From positions 397,288 to 461,287 of the forward strand of contig VCJN01001508.1 of NCBI GenBank assembly GCA_006384855.1: DNA of 64,000 bases. Reading direction: 5' to 3'. Under the pieces are notes generated by a model. It ran no database searches. It was given only the letters and a program-made list of their open reading frames with translations, and was not told where the DNA came from. Below, piece by piece: positions 1,471-63,634 of this stretch. How positions within the stretch are numbered: the stretch's first letter is position 1; the number at the start of each line of letters is the position of its first letter. The translations under genes were made by a program, and so were the position numbers. Origin of the DNA: Tetraselmis striata (taxonomy: Eukaryota > Chlorophyta > Chlorodendrophyceae > Chlorodendrales > Chlorodendraceae).

Positions 1471-4400
1471 GTGAAACTAACAGGCACAGCAATGGCGCGG
1501 GCGTCAACGGTGGTATTGCTGCTGTGCTGGTACGGCGGGACCCGCCTCGCTACTAAGACGCGGAGGCGCTGCGCCATCGATGCGGAGAAATTCTTTACTC
1601 CTGACGGCTGGCGCTCCGTGCAGGCTGGTTGCGACTGTAGAGGTGGCCGCGTATAGGCTCCCTCCGCGACACCAGCAGCTGGTTGGCGAGGCGGGGCGGG
1701 ACGGTTGGGAGACACCACGAAACGCCGGCCACCTGCCGAATGTCCCGTTCGGCCACGAGCAGCCCCGCGACGCCACGCTCCAGGTCCGTCCCCGATTGAG
1801 AACGGAAGCACACCTGGAGGCTCGGCTCCACCATTGTCTCCGAGGTGTCGGGTCTCGGCCTTAGTGCCTCAGCTGCGCCGGAGGCCGTGCGCTGACGCCA
1901 GTTCTGTTTGCGCCGCCCTTTTCAGGAGACGCGCCCCTACTGGTACGTGGAGCCGGCTGAGGAGAAGCATCTGGAGCGCGACGGGCGCGTGCGGTACCAG
2001 GACGACTCGGACTATTTTTCCGTGAGCGCGCCCGCGGCCCCACCTCCCTAACTCCGTACCGAAAAGTCGCAATTCTGGCAGCCAAGCCCGCACCACCGCA
2101 CAAGCTTTGGTCCGAAGCGACGGCGCATCTCCGTCAGCCACGCTGTGCAGATACTGACGCGCTGCGCACGCACTCTCCCAGGCTCTGCTGCCGCCAACGG
2201 GCTATGAGCACCATGCCTCCCAGCTTTTAGCGTACTATGGGTGGGTTGCACAACTATCTGCCATGGCGCTGGGGTCGCCACCACATGCCTGCGCGATGTG
2301 AACTCCAGCGTATCCCCGCCCACCTGCTGCATGCATTGGCTGAGTCTGCGGCGCCTCTGTTGCCAGGGATTACCCCAACCCCGGGAACTGGACCTTGCTC
2401 TGCGCCTGGTTCAGCGGCGAGGAGGGAATGGGCACCGTCTCGCTCATGATGAGCCGCCTGGAGCAGGGCTCTGGTCGATGGAGCACGCCGGTAAGTACCA
2501 GCAGCGTTGTGGCTGCACTCATTTGCGGAATGCCCCCGGGAAGATCGAGTCGGGCTGCAAGCTGCATGGCGGGACTCATGCCGCGTGGGCTTGCCCTGAG
2601 CAGGTGAAGGTCCGGCGTGAAGAAGGCGTGTCGCTGCAGAATCCAGTGTGGCTGTGGGACCGGCCCTCTGGGGCCATCCACCTGATCCACACCATGCAGC
2701 GCGGCAAGAAGCAGGTGCGCCCCCGGCTGATCCTAATCCACACCATGCAGCCGCCATTCCGCACCGCCCTCAATGTGGTGTACAGCGCCTATGACCTTTG
2801 CTGAGGGAGCATGTTGCCCCCCCCCCCCCCCCCCCCCCCCCTCCCCCCTAAATGTGCCCTACTCTCTCTGCCCTCGCCGCATGCAGAGCCGTGCCACGCT
2901 GCATGCCATGACCTCCTACGATGGCGCCGTCACCTGGTCCAAGCCGCGCCAGCTGTTCAACCGCGCTGGCTTGTTTGTGCGCAACCCACCTGAGCTGGCA
3001 AAGGACGGCAGGACCTGGCTGCTGCCGATGTATCATACGCCGAAGGTGCGCCAGCCCCGCAGGGTAGCTACGGCGTGCCTGCGGCTATATCCACCGGTGC
3101 TGTGGGGTCTGACAGGGACTTTTGGCTGTTGGTATGGCGTCGGTTGGCAGGGCGCGGGTCATGCGCCTTCGCAGTGGAGCCAGATGGCGATGAGCGAGGA
3201 TGGCGGCATGACTTGGAAGAAGGACGACTCGTTTGGCAAGATGTCGAAGCTTGGTAACCCCCCCCCCCCCCCCTCCCCCCCCCCCGCGCGCCTCCCCCTC
3301 CCACTGTGACGGTTCCGCAGCGAGTCCTTGTCGGCATCATTATTCTTCGCACAAGGGCCTGCACAATCAGTACTCATACCCCGGCATGCCTGTGCCAATA
3401 TCACCATTTCCCTAATAATTTGTCAACAAGGCATGCGCCGTTGATGCGGGATGGCTAGCGCCTGCACGCATGGACGAAAAGAATTGCAGGAACGAACTGA
3501 AAAATACAAATAAAGTTTCGCCTCTACCTCAATGTCCACCCCAGCCTGGCCATAGTAGCATGTCTATCAGCCATCAGGGCAGGCATTTTTGCGGTTTTGG
3601 CTGCGTTGTGCCTGCGTCTAATCGTGTTGCTCGAGGTTTCATGCCCGGCCAAAAATCTAGAACCTAGTGGCGATTTCATCATGTTCCTGGGCGGTTCGCG
3701 GACCTGCTGGACGAGGATGGCGCGAGTTGTGCGGAAAAGTATACTGCTTTAGCTATATGAGCTGAGTCCTCTGCCCATCCACCCGTTCTTGTTCTGGCGT
3801 TGTTGGTGCTCGGCAGGTAGCGGACTGGTCCAGCCCACTCTGCTTCGCTGCCTGAACGAGACCCACCACGGGAGCCCTGGCGGGCTGGCCGCCTTTTTCC
3901 GCGACCGCAACAAGGAGCACATCTGGCGCTCGGACAGCCAGGACGACGGCCGCACCTGGGGCAAGCCCACCAGGCTCGCCGTGCCCACCATTCTCCCCAA
4001 CGCCAACAAGGCCGTGCAGGCACTCTGGCTGCGGGCGACTACCCTAAACACCGTCATGGTGTTCAATAACAACCGGTGAGCCGGGTTGCCCTGGGCGCCC
4101 CGCTGCCAGAGCGTGCCGGCATTCCCTGCCTGAGGGGTGTGTGGGGGGTTACATGGTGCTCTGCCGATGCATGCCACGCGCATAGCGATTGGTCAACCGC
4201 CTGTCACCAAAAAAACATGTCGAGGTATACTATCAAAGCATGATGAAATATGACATGAAAACAGACCACAAACATTAGCCCGCCTTCAGTGAGACACATA
4301 TTATCAATCACACCGCAGTAATGATTGCTTGCACCGCCCAGCGCCGTGTGTTCAGTGAATCACGCGGGGTTATTGATTGTGTATACATTGCTTGTGTCGA

Positions 4401-62000: not shown

Positions 62001-63634
62001 GCGCTGGTGAGCGAGGTGGCTAACGGCGGCGCAGAGAGCGGCGGGACGCCGGAGGTGCTGGCCTGGGCGGCGCGCATCTCGCACTGGGTGGACTGCGTGG
62101 CGGCCGAGGCGGAGGACCCGCTGCTGCCGCGGCTCATGCCCGTGCTTGAGGTACCCCCCCCCCCCCCCCCCCCCGGAGAAGGGGATCGAATGAAGGAGGG
62201 GAGGGGGCATGATAGTCGAGCAATGGCCTGGCTGTTTCATGTCGTCGACTTCTCTGGGCGCAGAAGGATGGAGAGGGGGCGGTGTTCCAATGCGCCTCGT
62301 GCGTCATGATTTGTCACGGGTGCAGAAGGATCTTGCACTTAATGACACACGATTGCCCCGCGTCGCTCCTCTGGCAAGTGGGCGGTCCTTACCCTCCCCC
62401 CTTCACTTTCCAGCGTCCCAGCACCCCCCCCCCCCCCCCCCCCCTCACTATCCAGCGCGCAGACGCATGCTCGTACATAGAGATGCAAGATACACCTTAG
62501 CGCCTACCCTGACCAGCTGCCGCATGTGACTCACTCGCACTGCTACAATCGCTTCGGCAGTGATCTCGGGGCGGAACCGCGGGCTGCAGGATTGCTCAGG
62601 GCGGTTGGAGTATACGGTCTGTTACATTGCCACAGCATAGGCGCATCCGTGTCGCAAAGCAGCTGCTCCGAAACCATGGAAAACAATGAAACCATGTATC
62701 CATTCGGGGAATCAACATCTCCCGGGAACCCGCCTACAAACCCGTTGCCGCAAAGCCACCACCCCGGCATTGTCGCGTTGCCAACTTACTCTACATCGTC
62801 TCTGCATGTTGAGGGTTAACACTCCGGCCCGGTGCATGGCCGTGTCTTCTTTACGGGAGCTCAGCCGCTATGTCACCCCTAGGACCGGTGATTAAAGTGC
62901 GGCAAGGTGACCATACTGCTCACTACTTGCTGCTCGTCACAATGCAGCAACTAACATAGTTTTGAGCAGCCCGCAGGGTGCGGGTGCGACTCCGTGTTTG
63001 AACGCGCCGTCCAACTTAAATACAGTGCAGGTCGAGTCGGACTTTCGGCGGTGCTTGGTGCCAACACGGCATCAGTCCTGACAGATCTCAGTTTGTCCGT
63101 TGACTCGGCATGACGAGCTGCATTCCCATCCACCTGCCGGGGCAGCCGGTAGCTGGGTCTCAGCCCGCAAGGCATGTTGCGCACACGCTGCGCCTTCGAG
63201 GGCACTTTGCACTGACGGCTCCGCTGTGTGCCGGCAGGGCCGCCAGCTGATCGCGAGCTCCACCGCGGTGGCGCACTTCGAGAAGCTGCTGGCCACCTGC
63301 GGAGGGCCGCGGGAGACGACGCGCTTGGCGGCAGTGGCTGTCCCGCATCCGGGTGGTCTCGCCGCCCCCCGGCTTCGCGCCGAGCGGAGCGGGTGACCCA
63401 GAGGCGCGGGACGGCGGCGGCGGCTGGCCGGGGGCCGAGCCCCACGAGTTTTTCTCGCGGAGGGTGGCGCGGCTGGGCCAGGTGGCGCCCGCGCAGAAGT
63501 GGGTGCTGGGGCTGAGCGACACGGCGCAGGCCATGACGGTCACCGCCAACGGGAAGGTGCTCAAGAGCGCAGCCAAGCAGGGCGTCGAGCTGGAAGCGTT
63601 TGTGCACCGTGCGATGTGGCTCAGCGGGCTGTAA
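59075..63634 (+). CDS. C7orf25-like UPF0415/DUF1308 protein
   Basis: Homologue of human C7orf25 (UPF0415 family, function unknown). Nine exons join in phase: 59075-59151, 59366-59443, 59598-59667, 59791-59931, 60725-60913, 61057-61137, 61338-61436, 61863-62150 and 63238-63634, about 470 residues (the human protein is about 420). Matching blocks are VEVDVVAMSGAWWVEVK (human VVDVVANGGHTWVKA), SPSVVFFFPQ, AAELREMGAHVMDG, ANLDVTAMCALVSEVANGG (human VNLDVTTLITYVSALSYGG) and QLIASSTAVAHFEKLLATCG. The end is RIRVVSPPPGF and VLGLSDTAQAMTVTANGKVL. In the last exon the frame must shift by one base near 63325-63333 (between GGPRETTR and WLSRIRVV). This could be a base error, a damaged allele or real frameshifting. 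The start at 59075 is the first Met that fits; an upstream exon is possible. Confidence 0.9.
60257..60656. repeat. GGGGAT-type minisatellite in C7orf25-like gene intron
   Basis: About 400 nt of degenerate GGGGAT/GGTGAT/GGCGAT hexamers in the intron 59932-60724. The hexamer period keeps several frames open on both strands (Gly-Asp, Met-Gly, Pro-Ile and Pro-Ser repeats), giving false proteins of up to 271 residues. Confidence 0.95.

Follow-up and report, generated by a model that had tools for sequence, protein, structure and literature searches.

Poly-C runs on the sense strand crowd predicted 5' splice sites in the green alga Tetraselmis striata

Introduction

Why should long runs of C begin just inside introns, on the sense strand, immediately behind the 5' splice site (donor)? 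The question is raised by a stretch of 64,000 nucleotides (nt) of the Tetraselmis striata genome (GCA_006384855.1, contig VCJN01001508.1, positions 397,288 to 461,287), which belongs to the contig designated C1219 here and is called the window throughout. A first-pass annotation, made from the letters alone, had pointed to 14 introns on the two strands in which a sense C run starts within about 40 nt of the donor, and had proposed that the runs help to define donors or form during transcription. Sense-C crowding at donors is real and extends beyond the window. The evidence comprises the window, one 200-kb contig, pattern counts over the whole assembly (224,097,584 bases in 2903 contigs) and one gene family, with homopolymer lengths taken as assembled.

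Results

Sense C runs in predicted introns

Introns were taken from models of a purpose-written, two-strand hidden Markov gene finder, in which C and G runs were masked so that both were neutral. It was trained on the window and on positions 1 to 200,000 of a second contig of the same genome (C175:1-200000), which lies outside the original annotation and is used here as the held-out sample. The output was 424 predicted introns in 35 gene models. Unless all 424 are named, counts refer to the 275 better-supported introns, those flanked on both sides by a predicted exon of 30 nt or more; the remaining 149 are excluded. Intron results thus rest on predicted models, only some of which are backed by domain matches, and one of the predicted proteins was compared with Pfam and PDB. 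The two sequences together have a GC content near 58%, short exons, many introns and kinesin genes, and contain 171 C or G runs of at least 10 nt; runs of at least 7 nt in the window number 35 for C and 33 for G.

Within the 275 introns, runs of at least 10 nt are sense C in 66 cases and sense G in 13. Up to 40 nt from the donor the counts are 33 and 3 (binomial p = 2 × 10−7), and beyond 40 nt they are 33 and 10. The difference between these near and far ratios is not significant (Fisher p = 0.13), indicating a milder sense-C bias along the whole intron. Within the first 40 nt, the held-out contig alone gives 22 sense C versus 2 sense G runs (binomial p = 4 × 10−5) and the window alone 11 and 1, so that the orientation bias relative to transcription, claimed for both strands of the window, is borne out in sequence that the annotation had not covered. 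All 424 introns together contain 89 sense C and 29 sense G runs, of which 27 and 2 fall in the first 20 nt, and 14 and 4 in the next 20.

The runs are also positioned. Shuffling the 66 C runs within their own introns puts an expected 15.3 of them no more than 40 nt from the donor; the observed 33 was not attained in any of 10,000 trials. The commonest starting point is 5-9 nt into the intron (10 runs in this bin), just beyond the stretch that pairs with U1, and the signal, which begins at the donor, fades by about 60-100 nt. Over the first 60 nt of introns the density of long sense C runs is 2.57 per kb, roughly tenfold the intergenic rate of 0.24 per kb per orientation; sense G runs near donors (6 in 16.4 kb) are not below that intergenic rate. 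This favours a gain of C over a purge of G. Plotting the runs against donors, as the first-pass annotation had advised, was done here on predicted introns, and the enrichment of sense C within 40 nt is accompanied by balanced intergenic runs (23 C and 27 G of at least 10 nt) and by a single C and a single G run in exons. Likewise, a run starts within 38 nt of 32 (C) and 3 (G) of the 275 predicted donors, compared with 79 (C) and 95 (G) of 11,394 decoy intergenic GT dinucleotides. The result does not depend on how donors are scored: under a donor model that was trained, hand-set, based on the exon side plus GT, or restricted to GT, the first 20 nt contain 22, 20, 15 and 12 C runs, respectively, and no G run. 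Near acceptors C runs are depleted (9 within 40 nt versus 15.2 expected), unlike a polypyrimidine tract, whose place is just upstream of the acceptor.

Dinucleotide arrays in the same introns are also oriented, with 25 sense (CT)n and 3 sense (AG)n arrays, none of the 25 lying within the first 80 nt.

Genome-wide pattern counts

Gene models can be bypassed by counting, over the whole genome, the exon-intron pattern CAGGT followed by a run start at a set gap, with the reversed arrangement as control. C10 starting 0-30 nt after CAGGT was found 6714 times (3335 and 3379 on the two strands) versus 2156 (1034 and 1122) in the control, and G10 3573 times versus 3494. The equality of sense C and sense G near donors that, according to the first-pass annotation, would speak against its proposal was not seen in these genome-wide counts. 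At a gap of 100-130 nt the C excess has almost vanished (4432 versus 3960), and exact C5 tracts at 0-30 nt already exceed their control (13658 versus 9427). As CAGGT also takes in sites that are not donors, the true effect is probably larger than these ratios show. The reversed C10 control is itself lower near the pattern (2156) than far from it (3960), which we read as a sign that the C-rich surroundings of runs contain fewer G-rich pentamers; measured against the far count, the near excess is only 1.5-fold (6714 versus 4432).

Two further counts are not relied on. Counts of GTAAC9 (1200 versus 221) were set aside because three of eight fetched hits (L001, L004 and L007, on contigs C5, C9 and C21) come from a single repeat, which spans at least about 2 kb, shows 95-97% identity between copies, carries the motif and inflates its count, and because two others (L005 and L006) overlap. 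A search with AGGTRAGT used variable gaps, by which the strands are counted unequally, and only its donor-anchored strand is usable (44 versus 15).

Conserved genes across run-bearing introns

Searching with the Pfam kinesin profile produced 164 exon matches, and from among the matches listed 40 stretches between matches were chosen by hand before their sequence was viewed. In each, the flanking matches are nearly contiguous in the profile and enclose at least one intron, for a total of 22,250 bases. In these stretches sense C runs number 16 and sense G runs 6, or 14 and 5 after removal of apparent copies, a difference that is weak when taken alone. Donors read by eye gave eight non-redundant introns with a C run no more than 40 nt away and two with a G run; the exons ahead of run-bearing donors include motifs that we take to be the kinesin P-loop (in L060) and DLAG (in L035). 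The longest C runs of this set reach 34 nt. In three pairs of kinesin loci on different contigs (L035/L036, L032/L048 and L039/L040), the printed flanks, compared unaligned, are near-identical and the run lengths differ, pointing to uncollapsed haplotypes or recent duplications.

A second conserved domain crosses such an intron in the predicted gene at C175:77666-83583, where a p25-alpha match (residues 118-224) spans an intron in which C22 follows directly on the donor GTGCTG. The gene has further introns that are free of runs, and another in which a sense G25 run lies 101 nt from the donor.

Growth and placement of the runs

How the runs arise can be followed in alignments of repeats and paralogues, in which a long run in one copy stands opposite a short, interrupted C tract in another (C21 opposite CCCTACC, for instance), and in which copies about 97% identical differ in run length or by an interruption. 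Such growth in place from short C-rich seeds indicates that slippage builds the runs. A dispersed repeat, with copies at C175:100735-102635, 134394-135434 and 138801-140074 among others, carries C or G runs of very unequal length at the same site and is a natural record of run growth. Run lengths are bimodal, with few of 7-9 nt and many of at least 15, and runs of at least 10 nt have a median of 18 nt near donors and in intergenic sequence alike, which we read as slippage with a shared ceiling.

Slippage alone, nevertheless, does not place the runs. Dividing long C runs (at least 10 nt) by short ones (5-6 nt) gives 42/51 for the first 60 nt of introns and 24/120 for deeper positions, a ratio of ratios of 4.1 (bootstrap 2.5-8.3); intergenic values are 23/105 for C and 24/123 for G. 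The claim that random slippage does not explain the bias thus stands for placement and orientation, and falls for the making of the runs themselves.

Short tracts were counted in the 206 of the 275 introns that have no C or G run of at least 7 nt in their first 120 nt. There C4-6 tracts number 11.8 per kb at 6-20 nt and 7.8, 6.7, 9.6 and 7.9 per kb in later bins, and G4-6 tracts in the same bins 2.1, 4.3, 6.2, 3.4 and 2.3 per kb; at 6-20 nt this amounts to 34 C and 6 G tracts.

Repeats of other kinds are present in the window. An inverted repeat of 589 bases, 100% identical, occupies 51663-52251 and 52634-53222 and may represent a recently arrived mobile element or a recent duplication, and a tandem array with a 171-base unit (2.7 copies) lies at 18661-19120, with diverged copies near 20565 and in locus L008.

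Individual donors in the window

A C run is present on the claimed strand at all 14 places of the first-pass annotation, and nine of the 14 donors are used by the gene models: 3254, 10514, 59668, 60914 and 62151 on the plus strand and 7921, 18265, 19978 and 55675 on the minus strand. Several C runs start within the donor itself (GTAACCCC). On the plus strand, GTAA is followed by C16-T-C11 (3254..3285), GTA leads straight into C21 (62151..62174), GTGCCT has a C20 run 17 nt in (60914..60950), GTGCGC a C14 run 19 nt in (10514..10546) and GTATAC a C16 run 24 nt in (59668..59707); a further modelled donor, GTGTAG, has a C10 run 26 nt in (9929..9964). On the minus strand, GTAA is followed by sense C27 (19948..19978) and GTGCAG by sense C18 (18242..18265), GTGCGG has a sense C27 run about 40 nt in (7855..7921), and GTGCCT has sense C22 and C19 runs (55619..55675). 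The region of this last donor has a 77% identical counterpart on contig C175, with a single, shorter C run.

Four donors with their runs in place are absent from the gene models and remain candidates: GTACCT with C10 on the plus strand (59444..59459) and, on the minus strand, GTTGGA with sense C14 (7578..7613), GTTGCC with sense C22 (26972..27004) and GTGAGG with sense C28 (39890..39928). The minus-strand donor placed at 17590 reads GC; the model instead takes GTACAC at 17602, 12 nt upstream, as the donor, with sense C17 and C14 runs (17553..17602). The statement that no sense G run lies so near a donor was slightly too strong, since at the modelled minus-strand donor GTAAGA (55245) a sense G21 run begins 24 nt into the intron (55200..55245).

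A Pfam scan near the donors of the annotation (24 frame translations from 8 regions) gave one gene with matches above the cut-off, to BNR_2, and donor 3254 sits between its plus-strand matches at about 2896-3039 and 3879-4070. Between predicted exons of this BNR_2 gene model lies an (ATATGT)n array of 22.7 perfect copies (4686-4821).

Discussion

The reading that we tentatively favour, at slightly less than even chances, is that the C runs are donor-side intronic elements overgrown by slippage. Short sense C tracts, which in predicted introns exceed sense G tracts and are somewhat denser in the first 20 nt, are lengthened by slippage, as C and G tracts are in this genome; near donors the tract may then have been favoured or tolerated as an aid to donor recognition. 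Recognition would probably be through a poly(C)-binding protein of the KH or RRM type beside the U1 small nuclear ribonucleoprotein (snRNP), much as U-rich tracts are read by TIA proteins elsewhere. Given strand and position, the C-rich enhancer suggested by the first-pass annotation is the best functional reading, although a putative one. The broader proposition, that a poly(C) tract just 3' of the 5' splice site marks donors throughout the genome and is recognized by a poly(C)-binding protein that partners the U1 snRNP, is rather doubtful, as is its corollary that this signal is a C-based counterpart of TIA/Nam8 supplied by slippage.

Several observations weigh against a splicing role. C-run donors score no weaker than others (30 versus 211 introns, p = 0.47), so no compensation of weak donors is seen, and a rescue of poor donors was rejected. 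A C run starts within 38 nt of just 32 of the 275 donors, so there is no general requirement for one. Replacing the run by G or by random sequence in folding calculations did not significantly change the predicted accessibility of the donor (p = 0.37 and 0.22), and an effect through RNA accessibility was set aside. Two U1 small nuclear RNA genes (L069 and L070, on contigs C1316 and C1051) have the usual 5' end, AUACUUACCUG, without a G-rich extension, and the idea of a variant U1 was rejected; the RNA has an internal GGGGG, in a region modelled as a stem. Finally, the donor peak of short C tracts in the 206 run-free introns is modest, C exceeding G still at 60-160 nt (98 versus 32), and in the 185 of 275 introns without runs of at least 6 nt C/(C+G) is 0.555 near donors versus 0.526 deeper; amplified as a power, even so slight a skew could produce much of the excess of long runs.

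It is because the C preference is in large part intron-wide, and may be amplified by a power law, that neutral amplification stays close to a functional element and is nearly as likely. Intron starts would here be C-skewed for some other cause, such as a rise of GC near exons combined with strand skew, and quite possibly seeds past a threshold length grow by slippage and are purged from exons, leaving runs without function. The growth from C-rich seeds and the loss of interruptions among paralogues fit this idea, as do the common median of 18 nt, the C5 excess near CAGGT, and the enrichment over intergenic sequence, which by arithmetic on the run counts climbs approximately as a power of the run length. 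The surplus of short C over short G tracts, moreover, extends along the entire intron instead of being confined to donors. On the other hand, the roughly fourfold higher long-to-short ratio at donors is more than the skew would yield with a threshold near 8, the skew itself is left without explanation, and sense G at donors is not under the intergenic rate. Elimination of sense G runs from introns, owing to quadruplexes or to splicing factors that bind G-rich RNA, would leave C runs over and account for the intron-wide 66 versus 13; in the available part of one source the weaker intron bias of C. elegans is explained similarly (PMC2211496). It is nonetheless improbable, intronic sense G being close to the intergenic level while C rises about tenfold near donors.

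R-loops require G-rich RNA and are disfavoured by C-rich RNA. Growth of sense C runs driven by R-loops or template-strand G-quadruplexes at intron starts, for which it can be said that the bias tracks transcription on both strands, therefore has still poorer prospects: the sense strand is C-rich, so the transcript is the opposite of what an R-loop needs, and the R-loop suggestion of the first-pass annotation fits poorly on this point. Its template-strand quadruplex is compatible with the orientation, but leaves a donor-anchored signal that fades within about 60-100 nt unexplained. What distinguishes a donor within its transcription unit lies mainly in the RNA. Nor do first introns show an excess, with a C run in the first 60 nt in 3 of 34 versus 30 of 273 from the sixth intron on. 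Descent of the introns from a mobile family (introners) with a C run at the 5' end is very improbable indeed, even if several runs start inside the donor and some dispersed repeats carry C runs; comparison of the 424 introns with one another gave 22 alignments, which fall into a handful of local or paralogous sets, the 11-mers shared by run flanks come mainly from adjacent runs, one CT-rich array and a few repeats, and the GTAAC9 count owes its size to one repeat. Equally remote is an artefact of assembly or gene prediction. The gene finder was purpose-written and works on sequence alone, and homopolymer lengths are as assembled; yet C and G runs were masked alike in the coding model, four donor models agree and the raw pattern counts are free of gene models.

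Splicing elements overgrown by slippage, as we prefer to read the runs, can be set beside known systems, described here as far as the accessible portions of the sources go. In Chlamydomonas reinhardtii and Volvox carteri, repeat density is highest in introns, repeats lie near intron-exon junctions and a role in splicing has been suggested (PMC3887541); those repeats are GT/AC dinucleotides at both intron ends, whereas the T. striata runs are mononucleotide C on one strand at the donor side. Caenorhabditis shares the abundance of long G/C homopolymers, which are over-represented there, many of them intronic, with G commoner on the non-coding strand (84 versus 47; PMC2211496); in T. striata, too, G is mostly on the template strand of introns (66 sense C versus 13 sense G). 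The same accessible text reports no positional bias within nematode introns, unlike the 33 of 66 C runs found here within 40 nt of the donor, where 15.3 were expected.

C-rich intronic motifs bound by hnRNP K or PCBP/alphaCP can promote splicing, according to the parts available of three reports (PMC2481429, PMC4797308, PMC5829739), and hnRNP K acts on a C-rich motif near the 5' splice site of a chicken beta-tropomyosin intron (cited in PMC2481429). Similar to these enhancers, the T. striata runs are sense C-rich tracts in introns near a splice site (33 versus 3 within 40 nt); dissimilar is the lack of compensation for weak splice sites at these donors (p = 0.47). The described cases, moreover, are short motifs in single genes, mostly at the acceptor side, and not runs of up to 34 nt at many donors. 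TIA1 and TIAL1 bind just downstream of 5' splice sites, at 5% of exons (PMC2964331, as far as available), and thus resemble the runs in their position directly 3' of the donor and in serving a minority of exons, but their sites are rich in U instead of C. A U-rich signal of the TIA1/Nam8 kind was not found, T making up 0.17-0.19 of the first 30 nt versus 0.25 at 250-500 nt, and sense T6+ and A6+ runs in the 275 introns numbering 11 and 13. Donor-side poly-C did not turn up in the literature searched on poly-C or C-rich tracts in algal introns, a search whose coverage mostly left out subscription journals. What appears to be new is the strand-specific crowding of poly-C at donors; repeats at algal intron ends and orientation-biased G/C tracts in nematodes were known already.

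Donor-side intronic signals are U-rich or G-rich in the available text of the literature consulted. If the favoured reading is true, a strand-specific C tract at thousands of donors would be an additional solution, in a GC-rich genome. In practical terms, C runs may hamper gene models and assemblies of the T. striata genome. They also offer a natural test of what becomes of an unstable homopolymer beside a selected site, that is, whether slippage feeds splicing signals or merely decorates them.

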